DNA from: a virus
Strand: one strand, 5' to 3'
Length of the DNA: 43,562 nt
Virus record (IMG/VR): IMGVR_UViG_3300033149_002340
Coordinates: 1 to 43,562 of that record
The notes under the pieces are model-generated. The model did not search any database, was not told where the DNA came from, and was given only the letters and a program-made list of their open reading frames with translations. This document shows, piece after piece, positions 2,149 through 32,020 of this stretch (its first letter is position 1; every line of letters starts with the position of its first letter). The position numbers and the translations under genes are program-made.

Positions 2149-2337
2149 TTATTTTAATTTTTTTAAATCGTCATCTGTCCAACCCTTCACCGGCCAAAAT
2201 TTCTTTAATACATATGAAAAGCCAAGAAGCTCCCTTTTGCTAATTTTAAATATCTGTCCTAGCGTTGAGTTATGTGAATGCGAAACTGATATGTCTGAAA
2301 GATATAAAAAACTTCTGCCCTTTTTATGCTGATTGAG
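2149..2337 (-). pseudogene. Duplicated C-terminal fragment of the upstream glycosyltransferase
   Basis: A 62-codon open frame without a good start ends with FWPVKGWTDDDLKKLK and a stop, 6 nt before the tail-fibre ATG. The same residues occur inside the fused glycosyltransferase upstream (2324-3664). The simplest reading is that this was the original C-terminus of the enzyme, separated from it when the GIY-YIG segment was inserted and the junction duplicated. Confidence 0.55.
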
Positions 2338-2751
2338 CTAAACTAATCTTATCTTTGGTTTCCTTAGAATGTTTGTGACCCAAACTTGAACCCGCTGTTG
2401 GATTTATGTTAAACATATTATCCCACCCAATCTTTTCTTTGTATACATTAATAAATTCTTGTTCTTTTTTTATTAGATTATTCTCTGTACAAAAATATAA
2501 AATTCCAAACTCTAAATTATCTTCACCATGCTTATCCCAAGTATTCTGTAAATAAGCATTATGATGATTACCACATTTTAAAGATTTAACATGCTCTAAA
2601 AATCTACTTGACAAATCCTTTGCTGAACCAATATATATTTTATTATTTATCAAACTCTTTATATAGTATATCCCAGATTTTTTAACTTTCATCTCCTCTT
2701 TTTTTAATTTTTTTAAATCGTCATCTGTCCAACCCTTCACCGGCCAAAATT
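2152..2751. repeat. 50-bp perfect direct repeat flanking the GIY-YIG insertion
   Basis: Positions 2152-2201 and 2702-2751 are identical over 50 bases and encode the same glycosyltransferase C-terminus (FWPVKGWTDDDLKKLK). They bracket the 500 bp that carry the GIY-YIG reading frame. The perfect identity suggests a recent duplication at the insertion point. Confidence 0.9.
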
Positions 2752-3664
2752 GCTCTACAATTTTTGATAAAGGATAGATTTGCTTTCCCCATTTATTCTC
2801 CCAGAATAAATCTCTAATATATTTCTTTGTTTTTTGTACTACTCTGCCTCTTTGTTCATACGGAAAACTAAAGTCACCACCCTGTGTGCGAAACATATGA
2901 GCATACCAAGTGTCGTAATTAACCAACACTCTGCCACCAGCCAGTCTCGCCTTGGCGGCTACCTCAAGTCCTTGATTCCCCCAACTTCCAGCTTTCTCGT
3001 CACAAAGCTCCCACTCCCAATATTTTTCCCGAGTACTCATAAAACAACTTCCCTGTAAACTCATTGTTTCAGTATAACCATTTTCTTCTAAGCTTTTTTT
3101 AAATGCCGGCCGTTTAGTATAATCGTTGAAATACTGAAAATGCGGTTCAGAATCAAAACAATAAGATTTTGATTGTGGTCGTTCTTTGCCCTTCCAAATC
3201 ATCTTACGCTTTATTTTCTTCGTCTCTCCGCAGTCCGGACATTCTGTTGGTGTTGGACCCTGATATTTTTTCCAACCACATTTATAACATTTCCAGTCAA
3301 AAGCCCAAAGATTCCGCATAACCGGAACTGCCACAACGTCCTCACCAACTTTTTTCATAAAGTCAATCATTTTCCTATCAAATCCTTTGTCAAAGGAGCA
3401 ATGCGCGTCAACCTTCATAACATACTTAGCCTTGCTCATTCTAACTGCCATGTTTGCTGTCGCCCGTTGCCCGATTGATTTTGGCACGTAAATTATATTT
3501 ACCCGTTCGTTTATTGGAATAGGCGGATTCGCCCATTCCCCATCTAAAACTGCGATAATTTCTGTATCAGCTTCTATATTTTTTAAAATGTCCCCTATCG
3601 TCTCACGCAAGAAAATTTCACAGCGACTCGGTATTACGATACTAAGTTCCATTGTTAATTCCAT
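2324..3664 (-). CDS. GT2 glycosyltransferase with zinc ribbon, fused to a GIY-YIG homing endonuclease domain
   Basis: Residues 1-325 are a GT-A fold family 2 glycosyltransferase: LSIVIPSR at the start, EIIAVLDG, and a VDAHCSF metal/donor-binding motif like the DxH motif of GalNAc-transferase-type enzymes. A four-Cys zinc ribbon (CYKCG...CPDCG) interrupts it near residues 128-148. From about residue 330 the frame continues into a GIY-YIG nuclease: SGIYYIKS, then KIYIGSAKDLSSRF with the catalytic Arg, then a short NUMOD-like HSKETKDKIS tail. The junction coincides with a 50-bp direct repeat, so the fusion looks like an insertion that kept the frame open. The gene overlaps the upstream gene by 23 nt; an in-frame ATG at 3652 follows a GGAA and may be the real start. 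Confidence 0.8.
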   Translation of the reverse strand: MELTMELSIVIPSRCEIFLRETIGDILKNIEADTEIIAVLDGEWANPPIPINERVNIIYVPKSIGQRATANMAVRMSKAKYVMKVDAHCSFDKGFDRKMIDFMKKVGEDVVAVPVMRNLWAFDWKCYKCGWKKYQGPTPTECPDCGETKKIKRKMIWKGKERPQSKSYCFDSEPHFQYFNDYTKRPAFKKSLEENGYTETMSLQGSCFMSTREKYWEWELCDEKAGSWGNQGLEVAAKARLAGGRVLVNYDTWYAHMFRTQGGDFSFPYEQRGRVVQKTKKYIRDLFWENKWGKQIYPLSKIVEQFWPVKGWTDDDLKKLKKEEMKVKKSGIYYIKSLINNKIYIGSAKDLSSRFLEHVKSLKCGNHHNAYLQNTWDKHGEDNLEFGILYFCTENNLIKKEQEFINVYKEKIGWDNMFNINPTAGSSLGHKHSKETKDKISLAQSA

Positions 3665-10882: not shown

Positions 10883-13800
10883 TCAGACTAAGGAATGCTG
10901 TTTAAGCACTTCAAGGCTGTTGCTCTAACAACAGTACCACCGATTCTGTTTACAACTCTACAATTTTGTTATCACAATTTTTTTAATTATTGTTTCACTA
11001 TATTACTATAGTGTTCAGACTATATCATCCCCTGATAAGCAAAAAAGTAATAAACTTTATTGCTTATTACTTCATACATACTTTATTTATTTAATTGCGA
11101 ATCTATTGCTTCATTTTCTGTTTAAAATGTTTCTCCCAATATTCTCTATTATGGTTAGCTTTAAGATTACAAGGATTACACAAAGTTAATAGGTTATCCC
11201 AATTACAATTCTTCTTATCATAATCAATATGGTGGACTGTTAGATAATTTTTTCTTCTTCCTAATCTATCCTTACCTTCTAACTTTAAATCATCATCTGA
11301 CTTCAAACATTCCTGACAAGTATAGTTATCTCTCTCTCTAATCTTTCTTTTCAAACCATTGTTAAATTGAGGACTATAAGGCTCAAATGAACTGCCATTA
11401 TTCCAATATAGTATGTATGAAGTTGTCAATGTTCAGGAGTGCGGCGCTCGTGGCTATATTATCGCCCCATAAGGACTTATAGCTAGTCGTTGCACCTTCC
11501 CAGAAATTGCTCTCTGGGCTTGGCTCAGGATTGTCCTTTGCAGGAGTTTCCCTGAATTCACCGCATTTTTAACTATATGTCGCCATATAGTGCCACTAAA
11601 GTTAATGGCTGTCTGGTCTTGCTCGAAAGCTTTTGATTCGTCTTGACTAATCTTAACGGTCATTCGCTTTCGGTCACCAAGATAATAAGCTAGTTTCAAG
11701 CAACCAAAGTAAATCTCGGCTTCTGGTAAGTTATTGTCTTCAATAACTGGATTAGTTATATTATCGCAGAAGCATTTAACTTCTACATCTCATAGTTTCC
11801 TATGAGCTTGGACTATATCATATTGTTTTTTACAAATAAATAAAAGTAACTTTTATGTTACTTCACATATACTTAATTTAATTTATTTTACTAGAATCGC
11901 TTTGCTATTTTTTTACATAAATCAATAAATTCGTCATGATTTAAAATCCACTTAACACGATTACATACTTCGCAACAAGGAACACAATTTTCTATTGAGT
12001 ATCCTTTACTTGAATCTTTTCTATCAATACCAGAAAATCCATATTTTCCCATTCTACCGCAATAATGACAAGGTTGCTTTGTAATTTCCTCAAATTCATC
12101 AATAGTTAAATTCCAACTGATATTTCTTCTTTTTCTTGTTGCGTCTGCCTTGTAAACAAAATATCTTCCCCTCACTGTCTTCATGTATTCTTTCCGCCAT
12201 TCTTTACACCTAGCCTTATTTTTTCTGTAATATTCTCTAGTATACTCCTTTTCCTTTTCTCTATTTTTCTGATAATACTTTCTTTTTTCAATTCTACTGC
12301 ACTCTTTACAGTAATAACTAAATCCACTATTTCTTTTACCTTTGCTTCTATAAAAATTATCAGCATTAAGGTCTAATACTTTTTTACATCTTTGACATCT
12401 TCTCTTTCCTTGTTTGATTAGGTTTTCTTTTCTTTGTTTATTATCGTATGACATATAGTTATACACAATTATATCTTATAATATTATTGTATATAATACA
12501 ACAAGAAATGTCAAGTATATGTGTTTATTTGTAAAGAACAATGACGGCGCTCGTGGCTACATTACTGTCCACATAAGGACTCGGTAGCTAGTCTCTGAAC
12601 CTTCCCAAAGATTGCTCTCTGGGCTTGGCTGCTGATTGCCCTCGCCTTAAACGTTAGGGTTTTCCAGCAATTCACCGTCTTTTCTATCAATCTCACGACT
12701 GATAGGGGCATCCAGTTTAAATACCCATAAATGGTTGAAGGCTGACCGGGTGATGGACTATCCATCCAAATATATCTGTTATTGCTATCTTTAACTTTTC
12801 GAAGTTCTCTGATGTTATTCTTATGAACAAAGAAAGTACAATCAGGTCTATTTCTATACTTAGAAGGTAGCAAATAAATTAGGTCAATGATGTCATCAAA
12901 ACCTAAATTACCAGCAACAGCTTGACACTGAATACCAAGACCACCTGAAGCGTAACCAGTTGGCTGGCCTACACCAGTACCAACAGTAATTACTCTGTCT
13001 TCTTCTAAACCGATTTCCTCTGCGAATAAACCAATAATGTGCTGTACAATATCAACAGTATCGCAATCTTCAATTAGTTCATCCGTGGCATAAAGACAAT
13101 TTTGTTATCGTAGATTTTTAATTTCTACTTCTCTGCGTTACCGCAGAGTTCAGACTATATCATCCCCTTTTAAAACTCACTTATTTACGCCGATAGCGAT
13201 ATTTTGTATAATATAGAAAATATGCTATAATGACTATATAATTATTAACAGTAAAATTATGAACAAAAACAGTCTGAAGAATCTAACTCATCGATTTCAG
13301 AAAGGACATAAAACTTGGAATAAAGGTTTAACTAAGGAAACCGATAAACGAATCAAGAAATATGCTGAAGCTAAAATGGGAGAAAATCATCCTTTATGGA
13401 AAGGCGGTAGAGCTAAAGTTACTGGAGGTTACATAAAAATTAAAATGCGAAACCATCCTGATGTTACTAGTGAAGGTTATGTCTTAGAACATCGTCTTGT
13501 AATGGAGAAAAAATTGGGACGGCGATTAAAGCCATTCGAAGAAGTCCATCATAAAAACGGTATAAAAGATGATAACCGACCATCTAATCTAGAACTTGTC
13601 ATTAAAACTAAACATTGCGGTGAAATTAAGTGTCCTTACTGTCAAAAATTATTTAAGATTAAGTGAGTTGTAATGTACGGGGAACGGCGCTCGTGGGTCT
13701 ATTATATTCTCCTGTGCGGAGTTTCAAGACCTAGTCGTTGAACCTTCATCTGCCATTTAGACAGAAGCTTGGCTGCTGATTGTCCTACTCTGTAGGAGTT

Positions 13801-16244
13801 CCCAGCAATTCACCGTTTTTTTAATTGCATTTTTCAATACAATGCGACTCTTTTTAAGTGCGTTAATCGCGGCACATTTATAGGCAGTTAGAGTATGTTC
13901 AGTATAGGTAGCAGTAGTACAATTTTGTTATCGCAAGGGCTCTTTATCCCTTGCTTCACCAGTTTTATTTATAGCTGGTGTTCAGACTATATCATCCCCA
14001 GTAAGCAAAAAAAGTAGTTTTGCTTACTACTTCATATATACTATATTTTTAGTTGTCTATTCTATTTCAACTTTTTTTCCAATTCCCTAATTCTCTCTTG
14101 TAATTTTATTTCAAAAGTATGATTCTCGTGATTATGAACATTGAATTCTGAACTCCACCTTTCCATCTACCATTATATTTACCATTCTTTCTTTTACTAT
14201 TACACTTATCATTACAGTAGATTCCTCTACCTCTATTATAATCTCTTGGCAAAATCTCAAAATTTTTACCACAATATAAACATTTCATCACATATCTGAA
14301 TACCCTCTTTCCTTTAGGTTTATACCTTTTAACAATTATTCTTTTGTTTATTGAATTACCCATAATTATAAAGTAAATGGACAGATAAATCAAATGAGTT
14401 ATCCACAACAGTCCATCAAGTAGTATATATGAAGTTGTCAATGTTCAGGGGGACGGCGCTCGTGGAGCCATTACTGTCCCATAGGGACTCGGGCTCTAGT
14501 CGTTGAACCTTCTATCCAGTTGCCTGAATAGCTTGGCTGCTGATTACCCTCGCAAGGGCTTCCCAGCAATTAACCGTCTTTTCTACAAGACTTGAACAAA
14601 TCTTGTAGCCATTATTACTAGTGGATTTCGCGGCTCTCTCATCTGTCCAGTACACTCGTGGACCGTCAACTAATCCCGGAATCTTCATCACATCCCGTTT
14701 CATAGGGATTACGGTAACTCGAGAACGCATGTGTGGCATTTCTTCTAAATCCCGAATAATTTCTGCTCGGAATTCCAATTATGTTATCGTGGTTTTTTTA
14801 ATTACCACTTCTATATGTCTCCATATAGTTCAGACTATATCATCCCCTTACAAGCAAAAAAGTAGCTTTTGCTTGAGCTACTTCATACACGTTAACTAAT
14901 TTTTTATTTTATTTACTCTCTAGTGTTATATTTTTTATGGCACGGAATATCACATAATGTTTTACCATTATCAATATCCCATAACTCTTTACAATTCAAT
15001 GCTTGTTCAAAAGTTTCAATCTTGTTTTCAGTCCAGATTTTCGAGAAAGACTTCTTATGATGCGCTACTAATTTCTTTCCTCTGACTCCACAATCTTGAC
15101 AAGTCCAATTATCTCGCTTAAAAACTGCTTTTATCCAGTCACGATACTTCCAACAATGCCTGACCTTTTTAACAAGCGGGGTTCTCCCATCAACATAACT
15201 CGGATTTTTCTTACCTGTCATCTTGCCTCTATGAGCCTCACTCATATGTTCTCTGTATTTCGGCCTTTGCCAAAGCAGTTTAGTCTTGTTATTTTTTCGC
15301 TGTTTCTCTTTAGTCTCTTCTGTATGTTTTTTGCCAAGCATTCCGACTACACCTATTTTATTATACATTCTAGTCTTTTCAGCAGTTCTTTTAAGGCGGT
15401 CATCTGTCTCCTTAGTTAATCCTTTACTCCAAGGAATCTGACCTTTATGACCTAAACTCACTCTTTTTCTTTGTGTTAATGTCATTTTTGAACCTTTTCT
15501 CATATACCTTAATTATATAGTATACTCAGCAAAAAATCAAGCAATTATTCACACTAGAGCTAACGTGTATGAAGTTGTAATGAACGGGGGTCGGCGCTCT
15601 TGGAGATATTATTGTTGGGACTCAATCTCTAGTCGTTGCACCTTCCTGCGAACCTATGCCCTCGCAGGCTTGGCTCAGGATTACCCTCGGCTTTACGTTA
15701 GGGCTTCCCCTGAATTCACCGACTTTTCTTACAATCATTATGACTGTAAGCGACTAATTCCTTAATCGGGAAATAGATATCCACCTTCGGAAGCAGTACC
15801 TTCAGATAAAGCTTTCAAAGCGGCATGGTCGGCTCGAACCATAGCTTGGAAAAATCCAACAATTTTTTCTTTGACAGTCATTTCTGAAACATCTTTTTTC
15901 ATCAACTTTTCAAGGTCGATTAAACTAGTAACTTTCTTTTCTTTAGTCATTGTATCCTTTCTAAGGGATTTAAGGACTTTTTCCTTAATAACTTCTGGGT
16001 CTAGCTTGGCCATAATCTTCTCAGCAACTTCGTCAACTTTTTCGTCTAGTTTTTCTTCTTCCTCTTCCTTTCCTTCACCAGCTTCTTCTTTGCCGGCTTC
16101 TTCTTCAACTTTTTCTTCCTCTTCTTTTTCCTCTTCTTCCTCAACAGCTTCTTCTTCGTTTTTTTCTTCCTCTTTGTCTACACCTTCTTCCTGTTCCTTT
16201 TTAGAGTAGTAAACTACTCCGTCAGGACCTGTAATTGGGCTCAT
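10883..16244 (-). CDS. Major capsid protein, HK97 fold, split by five group I introns
   Basis: Exons (minus strand): 16244-15765, 14775-14621, 13919-13866, 13096-12723, 11752-11605, 10961-10883, in total 1290 nt or 429 residues. Joined, they give one continuous HK97-type MCP: a Glu/Lys-rich N-terminal scaffold-like (delta) region (residues ~14-65), [94 protein letters not shown] and a [11 protein letters not shown] end. Splice sites were set by the P1 helix (exon end paired to the guide sequence before P2) and by reading-frame continuity. Intron phases are 0, 2, 2, 1 and 2. It forms the capsid shell; the N-terminal region is probably removed by the protease encoded just upstream. Exon 4 to 5 has an alternative junction that deletes two residues (see findings). 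Confidence 0.92.
10962..11604 (-). mobile_element. Group I intron 5 in the MCP gene (643 nt)
   Basis: Starts TAACTTT and ends GATAACAAAATTG. P1: GCCAU / GUGGC. P2: ACTATATG-GCGA-CATATAGT, a perfect 8-bp stem with a GNRA loop. P3: TGCGG / CCGCA. R region CAACGACTAG, S box GATGATATAGTCTGAAC at ~11029-11013, P9 hairpin ACAAT / ATTGT. P8 (ACTTCATAC / GTATGAAGT) carries the HNH gene. Confidence 0.92.
11103..11429 (-). CDS. HNH homing endonuclease in intron 5
   Basis: 108 residues. [18 protein letters not shown] is the standard lead-in to the HNH fold, followed by [28 protein letters not shown] with the His pair, [17 protein letters not shown]. It is the same family as the free-standing nucleases at 6555-7103 and 23505-23759. 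The predicted start at 11429 lies in the P8 strand, so translation would begin inside a core helix. No promoter is evident. Confidence 0.85.
   Translation of the reverse strand: MTTSYILYWNNGSSFEPYSPQFNNGLKRKIRERDNYTCQECLKSDDDLKLEGKDRLGRRKNYLTVHHIDYDKKNCNWDNLLTLCNPCNLKANHNREYWEKHFKQKMKQ
11605..11752 (-). CDS. MCP exon 5
   Basis: 148 nt encoding [30 protein letters not shown] and AFEQDQTA. It ends GCCAT, where GCCAU pairs with GUGGC. The 5' boundary is at 11752 for a full-length product or 11746 if the intron ends at the next G. Confidence 0.85.
11891..12454 (-). CDS. HNH endonuclease in intron 4
   Basis: About 187 residues from the ATG at 12454 (another ATG lies at 12466). An N-terminal zinc finger ([16 protein letters not shown]...YCKEC) is followed by a basic helical linker ([20 protein letters not shown]). 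The HNH domain is then [38 protein letters not shown]. The GIDR and C-CN-K elements are typical of phage HNH nucleases of the endonuclease VII-like type. The zinc finger resembles the small protein at 28556-28861. It has a near-consensus promoter of its own. Confidence 0.88.
   Translation of the reverse strand: MSYDNKQRKENLIKQGKRRCQRCKKVLDLNADNFYRSKGKRNSGFSYYCKECSRIEKRKYYQKNREKEKEYTREYYRKNKARCKEWRKEYMKTVRGRYFVYKADATRKRRNISWNLTIDEFEEITKQPCHYCGRMGKYGFSGIDRKDSSKGYSIENCVPCCEVCNRVKWILNHDEFIDLCKKIAKRF
12486..12514 (-). promoter_or_regulatory. Near-consensus sigma70 promoter for the intron 4 endonuclease
   Basis: TTGACA (12514-12509), exactly 17 nt, then TACAAT (12491-12486): 11 of 12 consensus bases. 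It lies just upstream of the start codons at 12466 and 12454, after the P3 strand of the intron. Confidence 0.75.
12723..13096 (-). CDS. MCP exon 4
   Basis: 374 nt from [12 protein letters not shown] through [13 protein letters not shown] and [10 protein letters not shown]. It ends GGGT, where GGGU pairs with GCCC and U-G is at the cut. Confidence 0.9.
13204..13231 (+). promoter_or_regulatory. Possible promoter for the antisense endonuclease
   Basis: A perfect TATAAT at 13226-13231 lies 27 nt before the ATG at 13259. The best -35 match is only TTGTAT (13204-13209, 16-nt spacer). A second TATAAT at 13207-13212 is also present. Weak, but the gene needs its own plus-strand promoter because everything around it is on the minus strand. 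Confidence 0.4.
13259..13666 (+). CDS. HNH homing endonuclease encoded antisense to intron 3
   Basis: 135 residues. A basic N-terminus with a NUMOD-like linker ([29 protein letters not shown]) precedes an HNH domain: [36 protein letters not shown] with the catalytic His, and a C-terminal zinc pair CPYCQK. This is the HNH_3/AP2-associated subtype common in phage homing genes and different from the other intron nucleases here. It is the only convincing plus-strand gene in the window and cannot be translated from the MCP transcript. Confidence 0.88.
13866..13919 (-). CDS. MCP exon 3 (54 nt micro-exon)
   Basis: Encodes [18 protein letters not shown] across split codons. It ends ...GCGAT, where GCGAU pairs with the guide GUCGC and places U-G at the cut. 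Confidence 0.85.
13920..14620 (-). mobile_element. Group I intron 2 in the MCP gene (701 nt)
   Basis: Starts TAGTAATAATGG and ends GATAACAAAATTG. P1 pairs CCAC with AUGG, putting a C-A pair rather than U-G at the 5' splice site. P2: CTACAAGATTT / AAGTCTTGTAG. P3: GACGG / CCGTC. S box ATGATATAGTCTGAAC at ~13995-13980. P9 hairpin GCAAGGG / CCCTTGC. P8 carries a decayed endonuclease frame. Confidence 0.9.
14062..14363 (-). pseudogene. Decayed HNH-type endonuclease in intron 2
   Basis: From ATG at 14363 the frame encodes a basic N-terminus and a zinc finger ([16 protein letters not shown]...YCNDKC) followed by GRWKGG, the linker that precedes HNH domains in this family. The frame then fails. A +1 shift continues into a coiled-coil tail ([19 protein letters not shown], stop at 14062). 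The HNH catalytic block is missing, so a deletion plus frameshift is the simplest reading. Confidence 0.65.
14621..14775 (-). CDS. MCP exon 2
   Basis: 155 nt, from [12 protein letters not shown] to ...AAKST. It holds the conserved [15 protein letters not shown] block. The 3' end is set after CCAC because that alone keeps the frame into exon 3 and gives the family-like AAKSTTTATY. Confidence 0.85.
14913..15485 (-). CDS. HNH homing endonuclease in intron 1
   Basis: About 190 residues from the ATG at 15485, which has AAAAGG eight bases upstream; an earlier ATG at 15503 would be almost leaderless relative to the promoter. A NUMOD3-like basic N-terminus ([29 protein letters not shown]) precedes an HNH nuclease: [20 protein letters not shown] with the catalytic His pair, then [14 protein letters not shown]. 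It occupies the P8 loop. It should cut the intronless MCP allele near codon 160 to drive homing. It has its own sigma70-like promoter inside the intron. Confidence 0.9.
   Translation of the reverse strand: MTLTQRKRVSLGHKGQIPWSKGLTKETDDRLKRTAEKTRMYNKIGVVGMLGKKHTEETKEKQRKNNKTKLLWQRPKYREHMSEAHRGKMTGKKNPSYVDGRTPLVKKVRHCWKYRDWIKAVFKRDNWTCQDCGVRGKKLVAHHKKSFSKIWTENKIETFEQALNCKELWDIDNGKTLCDIPCHKKYNTRE
15512..15540 (-). promoter_or_regulatory. Sigma70-like promoter for the intron 1 endonuclease
   Basis: TTGATT (15540-15535), a 17-nt spacer and TATAAT (15517-15512). The predicted start is a few bases before the first possible ATG and ~20 nt before the better-supported ATG at 15485. Such internal promoters are known for phage intron endonuclease genes. 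Confidence 0.65.
15765..16244 (-). CDS. MCP exon 1
   Basis: Codons 1-160, from ATG two nt after the protease gene to ...GGYLFPD. It includes the Glu-rich delta-like region. The 5' splice site follows GAT: CGAU pairs with GUCG, placing a U-G wobble at the cut. Confidence 0.9.
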
Positions 16245-16246
16245 GT

Positions 16247-18820
16247 TTATTTTTTCTTCCTGCTAACTTTATTTTTTCTTAGGGTGGCACTTGCATTAGC
16301 AACAAGTACCTTCAAGACTCTCTGCGCGACCTTGTCAACAACGACATCGCTGGTAACAATTTTGCGGGTGCGTCTTGAGGTTCGACTTTTATCATCGTCA
16401 CCGCCTTTCAACCTCTCTGGAGTTTGAACTTTTTTTGGCTCCTTATCTACGTCTGGTTTAGTAGACTCAGTAGCTTCCAAAAGCTTCTCCAGGGCAGTGA
16501 CGGCTTCTTTTGACGCCATAACAGCGTCGGTAATTATTCTTTTATTTTTACCTGATATTACTCTGCCTTCTTTTTGGCTCGCATCTATTGCCTTTTCAAT
16601 CATTCCTTTTATTGTTTTGGTTCTTTCCTTCTCTTTTTCAATTTCTCCAATTAACTCTCTCTGCTTCTGTAATTTCTTGAGGCTTACAGCCAGTGCCTTA
16701 TCCATACTAATTTCTTCGTTCTTGGCAATCATTACGGCGTAGTCTATGAGTTCCCTGATGTAAGCTCCTGAGAATCCTTTCGTCTTCTCCACGGTATCGT
16801 CTAATGTCTTAGTTTCAATCTTGTCTGTCCATTTTGTAATCATCTCCCTGCGGACACTGCTATTCGGTAGTTCGAAGTTAAGCACATCGTGGAATCTTCC
16901 AGGTCGGTCCAACAGGGCCTTGGGAAGATTCTCTGGAAAATTAGTCGTGAGAATCGTGACTATGCCCTTGTTTTCTCTAATCCCATCCATTTCAATCTTG
17001 AGCGTGTCAATCGCACTACCCCTAAGCCAACTATCGATATCCTCAATAAACAATACTGTCGGAGCTAAATCTCTTGCCAATTTGAACGAGAGCCCCAAGA
17101 GAGAACCGCTAGACATCCTCTCAAAGTCCTTAGAGCTAACCCAAATGAAAGTTGAATCAGCTTCTTTCATTATCACTTTCCCCGAATATGTTTTCCCTGT
17201 TCCGGGCTCACCCATAAACAATAAACCTCTACTTCTCAATTCATCTTTTTCTTTATTTAAGACTTTTATCGATTTCATTATCAATCCCTTAGTTTCTTTC
17301 TCAAGAATCACATCATCCCAAGTCTTCTCTGACTTAGGCAAAAATTCACCACTAATCGCGAACTTCTCGCCTCTGAGGAAGTTATACTCCCTCACCCACT
17401 TATGAATATCTCCCAACAGACTCTTATTAACTTCTTTCTTAGCTGAATTATTGATTATCGTCACATCTAATCCTGACCAAGTGGGACTAAACTTTATGAT
17501 TAAAGCATTCTCACCATTACTCTTGTAGAAATTCATCCCGGCGATAAGGAAATCATCAGACTTCTCGGAGTTGAGTTTGATTACCTCGTACACTGGAGGC
17601 ACTTCTCCACCGTCATCAGCAAAACTACGAGTATCAACTAATTCGAATCTATTCATCAACTCCTTAAACCCAGCGAGATAGGTTCCCAATAGTGGGCTAG
17701 GAATTAAGTAATTGTTAAGGAAAACATCCTTAATTTTACAATCAAGAAACTTAGTATAAATCTCATACTCAAAAGTAGCTGGTTTACTCTCAACTTTCTC
17801 AATGTCAAATACTTTAGACAAACTCGGATTCCATCTTTTAGTAACTTGTTCTCCCATTTCACGCCCCTGTCCTGGCCTCTCAACTCGTCTCATTTTACCT
17901 CCACACTTTGGACACTTGATATCTACGCAGTGCTTATCAGAAGTTACCTTATACCTACAATCAAGACATTCACAGCTATAAGTCTGTTTCTCCTCTTCTT
18001 TACCAGTCGCTGGCTCGAACTTTATACCTTTGTGCGCCTTACAATGACTCCTCGCCGAGGATTCAGTCCAGGTATCTTTCGAATAACGATAACCCTGTTC
18101 CTCCCATTTTGAATGGTCATCTTTTCTGCGACAGGTGAGAATACTGTATTTTTTCCCATCACTTGTCCTACTCGTTCTGCGACAAGTATCATATTTGCCT
18201 GGGTCTTTTAACCTACAAGAATGCTCGTTGGGGTAAGGCTTTTCCACTATTTCTTCTTTTTCTGATGTTTTACATTCTTCCCCTTCACATTTTTTAGTCC
18301 AATCCTCAATATCCTTAATCGTCTTGTCTTCCAATTTGTCGGCCTTCTCAATCCCCTTCTCAACCGTAGTCAACGCCTCGGCATTGGCGGGAACGGCGAC
18401 GGCTGAAACCTCCAACAGCTCGTTAAAGGTCTTGACTTTCTTCTTGCCATCTTTCTCCTCCTCGTCCTCCTCATCTTCGGATTTCGGGATATAACCGACG
18501 CTCCACGCCTTAAGCACTCCTCCAAGATACATCTCCTTTAAGTCTCTCGCTAACTGCGTAAACGTATGGAAAACCGGCTCGAAAACAAGCCGCTTCTGTT
18601 TATCTATGTGAATATCCTTCGCAACGCCAATAGTATACTGTGGCTTATAATCATGTCCCGCTTGTAGTACAGGATTCTTCTTGAAGTTTTTTAAGTTCCA
18701 ATCTTCCGCCTTTAGTGAATCGCCAATTCTGTCTTCTGATTCAGTTGAAGCAATAGCAATCAGCTTTCCGCCTTTTTTTTCGGTATGCGCTTGTACGTGT
18801 TTAAGATTTTTCTTCGACAT
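16247..18820 (-). CDS. HK97-type prohead protease fused to zinc ribbon and AAA+ ATPase
   Basis: 857 residues, against roughly 200 for a usual prohead protease. Residues 15-150 are an HK97 gp4-type (U35) maturation protease with the expected triad: His56 in AGHDYKP, Ser107 in KAWSVGYIP, Glu137 in LLEVSAVAVPAN. Residues 195-270 form a Cys-containing version of the PNEH-R-KDP domain often attached to such proteases. A four-Cys zinc ribbon follows (CECLDC...CPKCGGKM, 282-308), then an unrecognised linker domain (330-490). Residues 500-700 are an AAA+ ATPase: Walker A GEPGTGKT (537-544), Walker B VLFIEDID (589-596), sensor TTNFP and Arg finger RPGRF (~639-643). A coiled-coil and basic tail ends it. 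The product may unfold or position scaffold or delta regions for cleavage inside the prohead. It sits directly upstream of the MCP. Confidence 0.88.
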   Translation of the reverse strand: MSKKNLKHVQAHTEKKGGKLIAIASTESEDRIGDSLKAEDWNLKNFKKNPVLQAGHDYKPQYTIGVAKDIHIDKQKRLVFEPVFHTFTQLARDLKEMYLGGVLKAWSVGYIPKSEDEEDEEEKDGKKKVKTFNELLEVSAVAVPANAEALTTVEKGIEKADKLEDKTIKDIEDWTKKCEGEECKTSEKEEIVEKPYPNEHSCRLKDPGKYDTCRRTSRTSDGKKYSILTCRRKDDHSKWEEQGYRYSKDTWTESSARSHCKAHKGIKFEPATGKEEEKQTYSCECLDCRYKVTSDKHCVDIKCPKCGGKMRRVERPGQGREMGEQVTKRWNPSLSKVFDIEKVESKPATFEYEIYTKFLDCKIKDVFLNNYLIPSPLLGTYLAGFKELMNRFELVDTRSFADDGGEVPPVYEVIKLNSEKSDDFLIAGMNFYKSNGENALIIKFSPTWSGLDVTIINNSAKKEVNKSLLGDIHKWVREYNFLRGEKFAISGEFLPKSEKTWDDVILEKETKGLIMKSIKVLNKEKDELRSRGLLFMGEPGTGKTYSGKVIMKEADSTFIWVSSKDFERMSSGSLLGLSFKLARDLAPTVLFIEDIDSWLRGSAIDTLKIEMDGIRENKGIVTILTTNFPENLPKALLDRPGRFHDVLNFELPNSSVRREMITKWTDKIETKTLDDTVEKTKGFSGAYIRELIDYAVMIAKNEEISMDKALAVSLKKLQKQRELIGEIEKEKERTKTIKGMIEKAIDASQKEGRVISGKNKRIITDAVMASKEAVTALEKLLEATESTKPDVDKEPKKVQTPERLKGGDDDKSRTSRRTRKIVTSDVVVDKVAQRVLKVLVANASATLRKNKVSRKKK

Positions 18821-21299: not shown

Positions 21300-22413
21300 C
21301 ATGGGTAATAATTTTATCAAGTCCTTCTCGGCTCTGTATATATTTCCTCAAATTCTTAATGTTGTTTTTCAACAATTCGTCCGCATTAAAAGTATGATTG
21401 CAACTCTTACACCGGAATATTCCGTCCATCAAAAATGGTTTTTTCGTCTTAAGTATTATAGCATTACAGGTCGTTCTAGGACAAGACCATATATATTCTT
21501 CCTTTTCAACAATCCCGGTCGCACACTTATTTTCTTTAATTTCATCAATAATTTTTCTAAATTCTTCCACAGATTGTTTAGCGTCCCATTTCTCCTTAAT
21601 TTCCTTCAATCGTTTTTCTGCCTCTTGAACTCTCGCCTCCTCTTCCATATATTTCTTAAGTTCATTAACATTATGCGCAACTGGCATTCCTAACGCCCAA
21701 GCCGTCAAAGTCTTATTATTACTCTTGTATTTCCATTTGCCCTTCTGGGAACGTGGGTTAATAACAAAATCTCCCTTAAGAATATCTGAATTAACAGTTT
21801 CAAGTTTCCACGGCAAATTCGTAACCTCAATATAAAATTTATCTTCTGCTGGTTGACCTGCCGGTGGTAAAAAATAGCTAGGCAAAACAAACCCTGAATC
21901 CGAAATAACAATTAAATTAAGTTCCAGTTTTCTAATCTCTGATAAACAAGCCTTAAGTAAATGAAAACCAGTAGAATATCCAAACCAAACAACTGTCTTG
22001 GCCTTTCCTTGTCCTCGGTGGTCTTTTCTCTCATGGTGATATTCAAGGTCAAGTCGGTCTGGTATATGAACAACCGGCTTCTTAGTAAAAGACTGAACCG
22101 CGTCCCTCAATGTCTCCGTCGAAGTTGTCACCGCGTCAACCTCTTCAATCATCTCCTTCGTCTGATAAATAAAACTCAAAAAGTCCGGGTCGCAAAGGTC
22201 TAAAATTTTAACTCCATCAAAAGCCCGCGCGTGTTCCGGCCAATAAACCTTCTGATAAACAACAGTGTCATACTTTTTTCCTTGTATAAACTCTTCTGCC
22301 TCTGGCCAATTTTTAAGAAGCCAATGCCCCCTAATTCTTGAACTTCCAATATTTCGTCTGCCATGATAACGTTCAAAAGTTAAAAGTCCAATTTTTTTAT
22401 CTTCTTCGGTCAT
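21295..22413 (-). CDS. GT4-like glycosyltransferase with C-terminal zinc ribbon
   Basis: 372 residues with a GT-B layout: VVYQKVYWPEHARAF and the N-terminal Rossmann-like half, then TVVWFGYSTGFH and KTLTAWALGMPVA corresponding to the donor-binding C-terminal half. A coiled segment (~275-310) leads to a zinc ribbon (CPRTTC...CKSC) near residues 320-352, unusual for the family. Overlaps the upstream GT4 gene by 4 nt (ATGA). It is the last gene of the large sugar island; the stop at 21295 lies in the operator-like palindrome. Confidence 0.65.
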   Translation of the reverse strand: MTEEDKKIGLLTFERYHGRRNIGSSRIRGHWLLKNWPEAEEFIQGKKYDTVVYQKVYWPEHARAFDGVKILDLCDPDFLSFIYQTKEMIEEVDAVTTSTETLRDAVQSFTKKPVVHIPDRLDLEYHHERKDHRGQGKAKTVVWFGYSTGFHLLKACLSEIRKLELNLIVISDSGFVLPSYFLPPAGQPAEDKFYIEVTNLPWKLETVNSDILKGDFVINPRSQKGKWKYKSNNKTLTAWALGMPVAHNVNELKKYMEEEARVQEAEKRLKEIKEKWDAKQSVEEFRKIIDEIKENKCATGIVEKEEYIWSCPRTTCNAIILKTKKPFLMDGIFRCKSCNHTFNADELLKNNIKNLRKYIQSREGLDKIITHD

Positions 22414-23444
22414 ATTCTTAACCTCTTCTTGGAGCCGTGCTTCTCCAAAGCTTTATTAATTAAATCCGCCCATTCTCCCTGATACCTTTTTAAATCAAAC
22501 TTTTCAATCGCCGTTTGTTTTCCTCGTTGTCCAACTTCAATCGCTTTATCATAATTTTTAAGCAAAAGTTCAATAAGCTGTACCACGTGTTCTGGATTCC
22601 TTCGACAAAAAAATCCATTCTCACCATCTTTAATAAACATATCCGCGTCCTGATTGTTAGTAGTAATAACACAACACCCACTCAACATGGCCTCGGTTCT
22701 CCCCCGGCTCATCGGCGCTTCCCTCATCGGGTGGAAATAAAGCAAACTTCTACCAACAAACTGACGGTAATCTTCCCATTTCTTAAAAGTAGCGTCCACA
22801 GTAATCTGACAATGAACAATATCCCTCTCATAAAGCGCCTCTCTTACTGCCTTGTGAAAAACCCTATCATAATACTTGTCAAGTCCTCCCGGGCTAAGCA
22901 TAGTCACAACCCTCGGCTCTTTTGGCAAATCAAACCATTCGTCCGCGTCAAGCCCGTGCCAAATCGGAATCCCGTGTCCCCATTGTTTAGCCGCAGTATA
23001 AGAATTAACAACCATAATGTTGTCCCCAATAATCTCTTTACATCTCCTAATCAATTCGCTAGACATTCCCACTTGGTCTTTGGTGAATCCTTTTTCTTCA
23101 TAATTATCGTTAGTAATATCGCAAACAAAATTCTCAGGGTAATAAGGCGTTCCGTGCATAATAACAATCTTTGGTATATCGTCAATAACAGCATTAAGTT
23201 CCCGATACAAACTGCCTTTTCCTCTCTCCCAAATACTATCCTCAAAACATTGCTGGTCTAAATGTAAAATCGCCACGTCGTATTTTCCCGGCTCATAATA
23301 AGGCACTTCTTTAATGTTAAACTTTCCCTTCAAATCCCCTCTCGGACCCTGATTATATCCACGCCGGTGTTGAACCAACCAAGTCCATTGTGTACAAGGA
23401 ATCTTACAAAGTTCATATTGATGAGCAATATGACTTATCACCAC
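22410..23444 (-). CDS. GT4 glycosyltransferase
   Basis: 344 residues, starting at GTG (23444; MVISHIAHQYE). The C-terminal donor domain is clear: VVTMLSPGGLDKYYDRVFH, then MREAPMSRGRTEAMLSGCCVITTNNQDADMFIKDGENGFF, the GT4 E-x7-E-type region. YDVAILHLDQQC and IVIMHGTPYYPENF belong to the N-terminal half. A 26-codon frame just upstream (MTNETNIKENN...), in another register, may be a remnant of an older N-terminus displaced by the HNH gene before it. Confidence 0.78.
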   Translation of the reverse strand: MVISHIAHQYELCKIPCTQWTWLVQHRRGYNQGPRGDLKGKFNIKEVPYYEPGKYDVAILHLDQQCFEDSIWERGKGSLYRELNAVIDDIPKIVIMHGTPYYPENFVCDITNDNYEEKGFTKDQVGMSSELIRRCKEIIGDNIMVVNSYTAAKQWGHGIPIWHGLDADEWFDLPKEPRVVTMLSPGGLDKYYDRVFHKAVREALYERDIVHCQITVDATFKKWEDYRQFVGRSLLYFHPMREAPMSRGRTEAMLSGCCVITTNNQDADMFIKDGENGFFCRRNPEHVVQLIELLLKNYDKAIEVGQRGKQTAIEKFDLKRYQGEWADLINKALEKHGSKKRLRI

Positions 23445-26250: not shown

Positions 26251-27189
26251 TTACAAGATATAAGGATACCCAATAATCTCCTGCTTAAAAATTAATTCGA
26301 GTTTATCACAAACCTTTTCCCAACTATATTTCTGAATCTCCATCCACCCCTCATCAGCTATCGCTCTCATTCTATTTCTATTACTATCAAGTTCCCTTAT
26401 CGCTTCTATAATATTATCAGTAACAACTGCTGTCTTATTATTAACTGCCCAAGGACAAACAGTGCCATTAGTTACTAACAAACAACCACAGGCAGTTGCT
26501 TCAGCCGCAGGGTTCGCCCAACCTCCCCATTTCTCCCAGCTGATAAAGATATGATGGTCATTATATAATTTAACTAATTCATTTTGGTCTGGCTGACACT
26601 GGGTTACTTCTCTTTTATGTATATCATTATCAAAACAAGAAATCTCCAATGGCAAAAACTTAGTCGTTTCTTTTAATTGTCTTAGAATATGGTCAGCTTG
26701 TTTTTGCTCCTTACCGAATCGACCAAAAAATAATACCTTTAAGATTTTAGCGTTCCAATCTTTATCTTTTGTTATTCTGAAATGGTCGGTATTTACTCCA
26801 CCGATAGCTAATTGACTGCCAGGAAAATTTTTAGCACATTCTAAACTATTAACAATAAACTCACAATCCTTAAACTTTTTATATTGCTCTAAATACTCAG
26901 GAAACGTGTTAATAACATAAACATACTTCTTCTTGGCCTGAATTTCGTTAAAGGCTCTCTGTCTTCTCGAATCTCCCGTAATAACAACGTCGGCCTTAAT
27001 CTTCTCACCATAAGGATAAAGTTCTCTCGGAAAATTACACTCAAACCAATTCTTATCGTAATCATGCCGATAATCTGTCTGATAAGCTACTACATCATGA
27101 AATCGGTCAGTTAAAGCATTACCAATCTCAAAAAATCGTCTGACACCGCCGTAAACTCCGAAATGTGGAAGTAATATTACTATTTTCAT
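26251..27189 (-). CDS. GT4 glycosyltransferase
   Basis: 312 residues with the GT-B opening KIVILLPHFGVYGGVRRFFEIG and donor domain VLFFGRFGKEQKQ, HIFISWEKWGGWANPAAEATACGCLLVTN, the GT4 catalytic region. Overlaps the upstream GT-A-like gene by 4 nt. It transfers an activated sugar in the cytoplasm; the specific substrate is not visible. Confidence 0.85.
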   Translation of the reverse strand: MKIVILLPHFGVYGGVRRFFEIGNALTDRFHDVVAYQTDYRHDYDKNWFECNFPRELYPYGEKIKADVVITGDSRRQRAFNEIQAKKKYVYVINTFPEYLEQYKKFKDCEFIVNSLECAKNFPGSQLAIGGVNTDHFRITKDKDWNAKILKVLFFGRFGKEQKQADHILRQLKETTKFLPLEISCFDNDIHKREVTQCQPDQNELVKLYNDHHIFISWEKWGGWANPAAEATACGCLLVTNGTVCPWAVNNKTAVVTDNIIEAIRELDSNRNRMRAIADEGWMEIQKYSWEKVCDKLELIFKQEIIGYPYIL

Positions 27190-29807: not shown

Positions 29808-30384
29808 TTTTTATCTTCTCCCACCAAAGCTCTGGCCTCTTACTAGCAATTAAAAAAAAGTAAATACAATTATTCGCGTCCCTGTTCTGTGACAAATAAA
29901 CTGGTGTTATCTCTCTATTTTCGCACATTTTTCTAATCGCTTCTTCCGAAAACCGCCAATAATCACCATAACTTTTATCAGTCGCAGGGTGATATTCCTG
30001 CATCCACGGCAACACCAATATCAAAATGTCCCGCGTCATATAACATAAATTCTTAAAGGCCGTCTGAAAATCGTAAACATGCTCTAGTGTTGTATGATTA
30101 AACACCGTATCAAAAGCACCATACATCTTAGAGTCCAATGGTTTTTCTAAATCTAGCTCAATCTCGCCTTTCTTGCCTTGAAACCCCCGATAATCTTCCC
30201 TAAAATTGGTTATCGTATAACTCTTGCAACCCCTAAAATAATAACTATAATTACAATTACTTTTGTCATTGTCTTTCCATGCTGACACATTAACAATGTC
30301 ACCTTTAAAAAGACCGACAAATTTTTTTAATTCGTTATTTGACCATTCTCGGTTTAAGATTGGTTTAGTATCGTTCAGAATCAT
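29773..30384 (-). CDS. SAM-dependent methyltransferase-like protein
   Basis: 203 residues. FDTVFNHTTLEHVYDFQTAF is the motif-IV region of class I methyltransferases (usually D-V-NTLEHV). It is followed by LILVLPWMQEYH, the strand and substrate loop. A clear glycine-rich SAM loop is not seen in the N-terminal half (GDIVNVSAWKDNDKS), so the fold is divergent. Lies between two transferases and overlaps both. Confidence 0.6.
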   Translation of the reverse strand: MILNDTKPILNREWSNNELKKFVGLFKGDIVNVSAWKDNDKSNCNYSYYFRGCKSYTITNFREDYRGFQGKKGEIELDLEKPLDSKMYGAFDTVFNHTTLEHVYDFQTAFKNLCYMTRDILILVLPWMQEYHPATDKSYGDYWRFSEEAIRKMCENREITPVYLSQNRDANNCIYFFLIASKRPELWWEKIKNVQDLLQQEKV

Positions 30385-32020
30385 ACATCTTATATAATAA
30401 TAACTTACTTTCTTTTATTTGATTTCGTATTTCGGGGAGGTGCTTAGAACTTTTAATCTCTTTAGCTTTGGCACTCTCAAGAAATGAAAACTTGCCTCCT
30501 TGCTTCTTCCAACGAGTCCTAACTTCTTGAGTCATACCTCCGTATTTTGTAATTCTTTCATTAAAAAGACCGAACGCTATACAGAAATTTCGTCTAACTG
30601 CTGAGAAATTCTCAACAAATGCTACCTTTGTACTACTACCTTTTTTGCCGTTAAACCAAACTCTCTTCTCTCCACCTTCATTAATAGCGCCAGCGTTCTC
30701 AACTGCATTAACAAAATTATAGACCGCATCCTCGTAAGGGCACAGCCTACTATCGTTAAAAACCAAAATCTCACCAGCCGATTCTATTACTCCAAGATTC
30801 CTAGCCATCGCTAAATTGTAACCTTCTTTTCCAGTATATAATTGTTTTATAGGAAGTTCACACTCTGCAAAAGTCCTCTCTTTTTTTTCTACTTCATCCC
30901 AAATAACTACTGCTTCAATATTTGGATAAGTCTGATTATCTAATGATTCTAAAATTTGTTCAACTTGCTCCTTTCTGTCATAAGTCGCAGGAATAATAAC
31001 TGAAGCTAATTTATGCTCAGGGTGAACCACGCTATACCAAACCTTTTCATATTCTCTAGCCATCTTTTCTTCCAACATGTGCTTAACAACCTCAAATCCG
31101 CCCAATCTAAGGCTCTGTCTCAATTTAGCGTCCTTCATAAGCCTATTGAGCGCGAATCTAAGCGCTTTAAAGTCATTACACGGTACTACCAAGCAATTAC
31201 TTTCATTTCGCGCGTATCCTTCCAAAATACCGGCCTGTCCCGTTGGCGTGGTAATAACCGGTACGCCACTCGCCCACGCTTCAAGCACCGGCAAAGGACC
31301 CTCTTCATATCCCGGACCCGAATTATTAACAAAACAAGTCAAACTATTATAAAAATCTTTTCTCTCGTTGTCTTCACACTCAACATAGTCATATCGTATT
31401 TTATGTTTCGGAACATTCGCCCAATATTTGTAGTCAATAACTTTCCCCATCATCATCAATTCATAATCCAATTCCCGGCAAGCCTGCGCTAAATCTTTTA
31501 AATTCTTCCAAGCAACAACCCGCCCAGCATATCCAACAATCCCCCTTTGCGGTTCTTTGTCGTTCCATTTAAATAAATTCTGGTCAATTCCATACCGAAT
31601 AACCTTAACATTTTCTGCCACACCCTTCTCCTCCAACATCGTTTTGGCCTCGTTAGTATGGCACATAATCTGGTTAATCTCATAACAAGGTTTGTCTTTT
31701 ATTCCCTGCCTCTTCTGCCAATTCCCGTGAAGTAATGCTTTATCTCTAACGTTGTGGTGCATTAAACAAGATTTATATGTCTTAAGTTCTGGTAATGCTT
31801 CAATAAGCTGTGAGGCACTTCTAAAGTACTCATACTGTATCAAATCAGGTTTGAATTTATTAACTAACGCAATAAAGGATAACTGAGTCTTTTGTTGTCC
31901 TGCGTCTCTCGGTGGAACATAAGCAAATTGAATTTGATGATGCTTGTTGAATTTTGCGACACTTTGAGCAAGCGTATCGATAGCCCAGCCTTGAATGTCA
32001 CATACAAAAAGTATTTTCAT
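30365..32020 (-). CDS. Bifunctional glycosyltransferase, GT4-GT2 fusion
   Basis: 551 residues. Residues 1-340 are a GT4 enzyme: MKILFVCDIQGWA, GIVGYAGRVVAWKN, EEGPLPVLEAWASGVPVITT with the ExxxxxxxE-type donor site. From ~350 a GT2 domain follows: SVIIPATYDRKEQVEQIL, LYTGKEGYNLAMARNLGV, EILVFNDSRLCP with an NDS motif in place of DxD. Two transferases in one chain often add successive sugars. No membrane segment. Confidence 0.82.
   Translation of the reverse strand: MKILFVCDIQGWAIDTLAQSVAKFNKHHQIQFAYVPPRDAGQQKTQLSFIALVNKFKPDLIQYEYFRSASQLIEALPELKTYKSCLMHHNVRDKALLHGNWQKRQGIKDKPCYEINQIMCHTNEAKTMLEEKGVAENVKVIRYGIDQNLFKWNDKEPQRGIVGYAGRVVAWKNLKDLAQACRELDYELMMMGKVIDYKYWANVPKHKIRYDYVECEDNERKDFYNSLTCFVNNSGPGYEEGPLPVLEAWASGVPVITTPTGQAGILEGYARNESNCLVVPCNDFKALRFALNRLMKDAKLRQSLRLGGFEVVKHMLEEKMAREYEKVWYSVVHPEHKLASVIIPATYDRKEQVEQILESLDNQTYPNIEAVVIWDEVEKKERTFAECELPIKQLYTGKEGYNLAMARNLGVIESAGEILVFNDSRLCPYEDAVYNFVNAVENAGAINEGGEKRVWFNGKKGSSTKVAFVENFSAVRRNFCIAFGLFNERITKYGGMTQEVRTRWKKQGGKFSFLESAKAKEIKSSKHLPEIRNQIKESKLLLYKMYDSERY

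Follow-up and report, generated by a model that had tools for sequence, protein, structure and literature searches.

Five predicted group IA introns in the major capsid protein gene of an uncultured phage

In 1999 orf142 of phage Twort was reported to contain three introns, which are spliced in experiments, and to show exon skipping (Landthaler and Shub, 1999). For mycobacteriophage LittleE the splicing of an intron in the capsid gene was shown by RT-PCR and protein sequencing (PMC3706429). The major capsid protein (MCP) gene of the crAss-like Zeta phage OLRF01000054 is divided into five fragments by four insertions (Yutin et al., 2021; PMC7886860). In the Bastillevirinae up to three group I introns occur within a polymerase or terminase gene (PMC11878797), and the Jug phages carry many group I introns, the splicing of which is supported by metatranscriptomes (PMC12363816).

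The window analyzed here comprises the 43,562 nt of IMGVR_UViG_3300033149_002340, a metagenome contig of an uncultured phage. On its minus strand (16244-10888) lies an HK97-type MCP gene composed of six exons and five group IA introns (Table 1), the exons having been placed with the help of the P1 pairing, the 3′ motif GATAAC...TTG and the protein. Removal of the five introns leaves a protein of 427 amino acids, of which residues 154-423 match Pfam PF05065 (Phage_capsid; 5e-58) over positions 1-278 of the 280 in the profile; the family match spans the whole domain, from which the product is predicted to be an HK97-fold major capsid protein. The original prediction had given the first five exon lengths exactly; it had assigned 79 nt to the last exon, which is 73 nt long, and therefore 429 rather than 427 residues to the protein. 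We consider it very probable that the five introns are mobile and excise themselves, yielding an mRNA for the complete capsid protein. In favor of this proposal are the ribozyme cores, the junctions, a reading frame that is intact after splicing, the purifying selection to which the exons are subject, the empty sites in relatives and the restriction of the introns to the MCP gene. From the structure of the gene it follows that capsid formation would need five splicing events.

TABLE 1. Exons, introns and intron-borne open reading frames of the MCP gene in the window.
Feature	Position	Strand	Size	Description
MCP exon 1	15765..16244	(-)	480 nt	acidic N-terminal region to ...YLFPD
Intron 1	14776..15764	(-)	989 nt	group IA; P1 CGAU/GUCG with U.G; ends ATAATTG
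ORF in intron 1	14913..15503	(-)	196 aa	NUMOD3/HNH homing endonuclease-like; PF07460 3.5e-4, phrog_8446 1.8e-7
MCP exon 2	14621..14775	(-)	155 nt	
Intron 2	13920..14620	(-)	701 nt	5′ exon C opposite A (CCAC/AUGG); ends AAATTG
ORF in intron 2	14106..14441	(-)	111 aa	putative shortened HNH endonuclease; phrog_1271 0.0065
MCP exon 3	13866..13919	(-)	54 nt	small exon
Intron 3	13097..13865	(-)	769 nt	P1 GCGAU/GUCGC; P10 of 5 bp; ends AAATTG
ORF in intron 3	13259..13666	(+)	135 aa	putative HNH_3 endonuclease; PF13392 6.6e-11, phrog_20891 1.8e-31
MCP exon 4	12723..13096	(-)	374 nt	
Intron 4	11753..12722	(-)	970 nt	P1 GGGU/GCCC; 8-bp P10 AACUGGAU/AUCCAGUU; ends AACTA
ORF in intron 4	11891..12466	(-)	191 aa	endonuclease VII-like; phrog_1035 5.4e-26
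MCP exon 5	11605..11752	(-)	148 nt	
Intron 5	10961..11604	(-)	644 nt	P1 GCCAU/GUGGC; P10 of 8 pairs (G.U counted); ends AAATTG
ORF in intron 5	11103..11429	(-)	108 aa	putative HNH endonuclease; PF01844 3e-5, phrog_119 1.1e-10
MCP exon 6	10888..10960	(-)	73 nt	stop codon included; aligned with DQTAIRVVQRIAGTVV in L024, whose MCP is uninterrupted

That five group I introns lie within one MCP gene, as originally predicted, was borne out by the junctions, by the intact spliced frame and by a search with the Rfam group I covariance model, which found five cores, three above the gathering score (intron 4, 12732-12451, 66.3 bits; intron 3, 13875-13608, 59.8 bits; intron 5, 11614-11283, 59.3 bits) and two just below it (intron 1, 15774-15494, 48.8 bits, E 2.5e-10; intron 2, 14581-14451, 43.4 bits, E 1e-8). 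The ORFs split the matches, and the 3′ P7/P9 part was matched separately at 13133-13221, 14813-14844, 10998-11029 and 11791-11821. In the window the Rfam group I search gave no match outside the capsid gene. A covariance model built from the introns of the phage clade, the window's own included (R1), scored all five with 98-131 bits, intron 1 with 98.5 bits (15589-15725) and intron 2 with 130.9 bits (14451-14580).

In an alignment of 36 cores of the clade (A3; 30 pairs, P7 left out of the model), in which the helices P3, P4, P5 and P6 were found, 23 of the 30 core pairs had both sides changed and 95.7% of the cells were paired; there were 266 double-changed cells versus 78.7 ± 7.1 after shuffling (0 of 500) and 15-56 with the partners slid. 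P7 covaries in all 38 clade introns, in the four combinations A[C]GACUA/UAGUCU (22 introns), G[A]GACUA/UAGUCC (10), G[A]GCAUA/UAUGCC (5) and A[C]GCAUA/UAUGCU (1), the guanosine-binding G-C pair being kept throughout, also in all five introns of the window. Two further covarying helices (helices 6 and 7) lie between P7 and P3, at the position of P7.1/P7.2, and with these extra paired elements the introns are assigned, as judged from their predicted folding, to subgroup IA. Of the 38 clade introns 37 end in G, and in 34 the 5′ exon ends in a U that is opposite G in P1.

The junctions could be tested on L008 (IMG/VR 3300030616_000886), which lacks introns 1 and 3 and in which the DNA is continuous at exactly the predicted bases, TTTCCTGAT|GAATTTCGA at the end of exon 1 and GCAAT|TCTTTATG at the site of intron 3; intron 2 is retained at the same place. 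The uninterrupted MCP of L024, 63% identical over residues 62-427, aligns gap-free at all five junctions, and a dynamic-programming spliced alignment against an MCP profile returned the same boundaries in the window. The latter test is not wholly independent, because the profile contained, besides mostly uninterrupted MCPs (41 loci), four hand-spliced MCPs, the window's among them; its false calls, namely very short N-terminal exons where the sequence is acidic and of low complexity, and those in L048, L092 and L093, were discarded. Between the exons of the window and of L008 78 changed codons are synonymous and 15 non-synonymous; in exon 2 the synonymous ones make up 22 of 23. The originally predicted 54-nt exon stands both in the exon map and in its codons, all seven changed codons being synonymous and none non-synonymous. 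The exons, the 54-nt exon included, are on these counts under purifying selection, and from the junction tests together with the synonymous excess we conclude that they, even the small one, are read as protein. A reading of the insertions as inteins was rejected: they do not stay in the frame of the MCP and contain stop codons, and their ORFs match endonucleases and no intein family.

As judged from the database matches, homing endonucleases are predicted clearly for introns 3, 4 and 5, more weakly for intron 1 and in shortened form for intron 2. The latter intron shares 89% and 86% identity over two parts with that of L008, relative to which its ORF has a deletion of about 200 nt; the L008 copy is longer and retains the HNH part. 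The ORF in intron 3 runs antisense to the MCP and has a TATAAT-like sequence just upstream; expression of its endonuclease could be independent of the late transcript.

Two of the introns depart from the usual splice sites. The terminal G is present in introns 1, 2, 3 and 5, and the U.G pair in P1 in introns 1, 3, 4 and 5. The five junctions of the original prediction are not all canonical; in intron 2 the pair is C.A. Four clade introns have a 5′ exon ending in C, all of them at sites 203.67 and 211.67 (in window residues). The P1 table has this C facing A in intron 2 of the window (CCAC/AUGG), in L008 and in L084; for the intron of L090/L091 it picked a remote helix, and GGAC versus AUCC, again C·A, was read by eye. 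In laboratory tests of group I introns C·A is able to replace U·G. Intron 4, with AACTA at its end, is the sole exception to the terminal G among the 38 introns, the terminal base being most likely A instead of the conserved G; its P1 has the U·G, and its guanosine site is unchanged. A scan for further copies of this end by DNA pattern returned none in collections that may be without close copies of the window, and, the window being a metagenome contig, a base-call error or a rare variant is possible. A natural group I intron with a terminal A, that in the 23S rRNA of Coxiella, was reportedly described by Raghavan and co-workers. Like intron 4 it has A for G at its end; it resides in bacterial rRNA, whereas intron 4 resides in phage mRNA.

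Since the U.G rule is broken in intron 2 and the terminal-G rule in intron 4, these two at least could splice poorly or elsewhere. For intron 4 there is a junction that offers a U.G in P1 (GGGUAUU/GAUGCCC) as well as a terminal G, namely GGGUAUU|UAAA...CCAG|UUAUUG, with which the protein would read ...GYFIEDNN and not ...GYPVIEDNN. We regard its use as unlikely, because it deletes one residue where the MCP alignments are gap-free, lacks a P10 and places the end 19 nt past the GATAA motif rather than the usual 12-14 nt elsewhere. At the junction preferred by us the 3′ exon AUCCAGUU and the segment AACUGGAU of the internal guide sequence form eight Watson-Crick pairs directly adjoining P1, the joined bases restore GYPVIED gap-free, and the intron of L021 at the same site keeps this register, but has a terminal G; exons 4 and 5 joined in this manner would read GGGTATCCAGTT, contrary to the other junction. 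In intron 2 the 5′ cut could come later, after GGCUACAAGAU, in which case the MCP would be longer by seven residues (SNNGYKI), in an unchanged frame, and the hairpin CUACAAGAU/GUCUUGUAG would act as a long P1, its U.G located where cleavage takes place. However, in L008 the same hairpin ends with U-A rather than U.G, which is how a P2 behaves, and the seven additional residues break the gap-free KSTTTA alignment with uninterrupted MCPs, so that we give the later cut very little chance. Introns 2 and 4 would be spliced at a C.A and at a terminal-A site, respectively.

A search with the single MCP had found only two loci; a portal search and then a spliced-MCP alignment search yielded the clade, the relatives being gathered by portal- and MCP-based scans of IMG/VR and genome contigs. 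An uninterrupted full or near-full MCP is present at 51 loci (45 distinct), and 46 of the 62 rows of the MCP tree are without interruption. In the interrupted MCPs of the clade 38 different introns with both boundaries placed were counted; they occupy 15 sites, which in window residues are 149.0, 155.33, 159.0, 160.0, 177.0, 203.67, 211.67, 229.67, 233.33, 295.0, 354.33, 376.33, 396.33, 400.0 and 403.67. Five introns per MCP are, on the predicted exon maps, not the maximum: the gene of L021 has six, with exons of 30 and 54 nt among its exons, that of L091 five and that of L020 four, with an 11-nt exon, CTTATACGCCT, at 13580-13590. The ceiling of about three that had been supposed after the example of orf142 is thus exceeded by L021 and L091 and also by the four insertions of the crAss-like Zeta MCP. 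MCP relatives were also seen in a Ca. Magasanikbacteria MAG (L097/G016) and in a Pacearchaeota bin (L096), a hint at hosts if the binning is right, which it may not be.

In L069 (8690-9840) and L077 (5980-6972) the P1 loop of an intron at site 396.33 repeats the last exon completely and in frame; the contig of L077 stops at the start of the second copy. A script had called the C-terminus of both uninterrupted, a call that was rejected because the P1 loop mimics the last exon. From the sequences, a full MCP would be encoded whether or not the RNA is spliced, the two forms differing slightly at the C-terminus.

To explain which of the 62 rows of the MCP tree carry introns, no fewer than 9 gains or losses have to be assumed; the tree requires 13 changes, versus 14.5 for shuffled labels. 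The insertion sites lie in conserved protein (entropy 0.69 versus 1.04, p = 0.0004). In the tree of intron cores, which with 133 nt are short, nearest neighbors agree by site in 5 cases and by phage in 5, as compared with 2.5 and 2.3 expected. The core tree shows clear grouping neither by site nor by phage and so gives no support to vertical descent at fixed sites; the finding fits movement between sites of the MCP gene.

Six intron-bearing records (43.6, 99.1, 49.5, 63.7, 17.2 and 12.8 kb) were scanned whole. The clade model found 24 introns (5, 6, 2, 3, 5 and 3, respectively), all within the MCP. Because this model was trained on MCP introns, the general Rfam model is the fairer control; it likewise matched only the MCP, in five of the six records, with no match in G002. 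MCP coding sequence makes up about 3% of these records (a rough estimate), so that placement in the MCP by chance is not credible. In other records there were two weak matches outside the MCP, in L037 and in the record of L040, the latter found by Rfam too. Of 287 genomes from the phylum to which a Magasanikbacteria MAG belongs, 72 contain more distant relatives of the core, and of the ten best several are situated among tRNA genes. We lean toward the view that in this clade of phages, perhaps of Patescibacteria, the capsid gene is the only landing ground of one family of group I introns, which spreads between its many sites.

We propose that each intron would excise itself from the late transcript by two transesterifications initiated by guanosine, and that the endonucleases (HNH in introns 1, 3 and 5, endonuclease VII-like in intron 4, shortened HNH in intron 2) would copy the introns into empty MCP alleles during mixed infection. 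Through such homing, and through moves to new sites within the gene, in conserved stretches that the clade has in common, the introns would have built up, being gained and lost quickly. It is conceivable, if rather improbable, that some of them are kept as more than tolerated parasites, their slow splicing serving as a brake or sensor on capsid production. The confinement to the MCP in six whole records, the weakened splice sites of two introns and the spare last exon inside the intron of two relatives, owing to which unspliced RNA also codes for a full MCP, speak for such a role. However, close relatives differ irregularly in whether they have introns, and some three quarters of the MCPs in the clade have none, which is the behavior of selfish homing elements. 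That the gene is the decaying, unspliced wreck of a dead phage we hold to be extremely improbable, since the exons are without frameshift or stop and under purifying selection and the cores are intact with compensatory changes.

Several other genes were noted. The window encodes an 857-aa protein (16247-18820, minus strand) in which a prohead serine protease (Peptidase_S78) is joined to an AAA+ ATPase domain (PF00004, 8e-20); the middle part of this protein has no match in L008, L020 and L024. A protein of 446 aa (2324-3664, minus strand) combines an N-terminal glycosyltransferase family 2 with a C-terminal GIY-YIG endonuclease domain, and further glycosyltransferase genes are located at 22410-23444, 26251-27189 and 30365-32020 (minus strand). 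An insertion in the portal gene of L022 (10903-11882) was rejected as an intron, since by eye only it looks like an intein (CHSEDTEVLTENGFKKY...RNGKITASGN). A MuF-like head gene in L016 contains an interruption (11435-12384) of about 950 nt, which does not match the clade intron model.

Here some 40 introns of related sequence occupy 15 sites in a single essential gene; there are empty sites as well, and both intact and decayed copies and forms with and without ORFs are represented. Such a natural set permits direct tests of moves to new sites, of the repeated targeting of one gene and of the way in which a phage tolerates up to six splicing events for the protein it makes most of. Natural examples of C·A at a 5′ splice site and of a terminal A are included in it. 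For annotation there is a warning: gene callers that see no more than pieces a few dozen bases long can make phages of this clade appear to have no capsid gene.

Like the MCP gene of the window, orf142 of Twort is reported to have several group IA introns in one phage gene; it is a non-capsid gene, whereas the gene in the window is that of the MCP and its splicing is predicted. LittleE shares with intron 3 the location in a capsid gene and the endonuclease ORF on the opposite strand, but has one intron with a LAGLIDADG-like ORF rather than five introns (PMC3706429). The introns of the Jug phages and Bastillevirinae are mostly in terL, polymerase and nrd genes, those of the window in the MCP (PMC12363816; PMC11878797). 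Closest is OLRF01000054, whose MCP gene is also split by several insertions, mostly group I introns with endonuclease domains; it has four, in a large gut phage with many introns and inteins genome-wide, whereas the present phages, a different clade, have five to six, their group I introns being confined to the MCP. Single capsid introns that are spliced, and one MCP with four insertions, are thus already known (PMC3706429; PMC7886860); new, as far as we could find, are five and six introns per MCP, an 11-nt exon, the confinement of an entire intron family to a single gene and the unorthodox splice sites of two introns.
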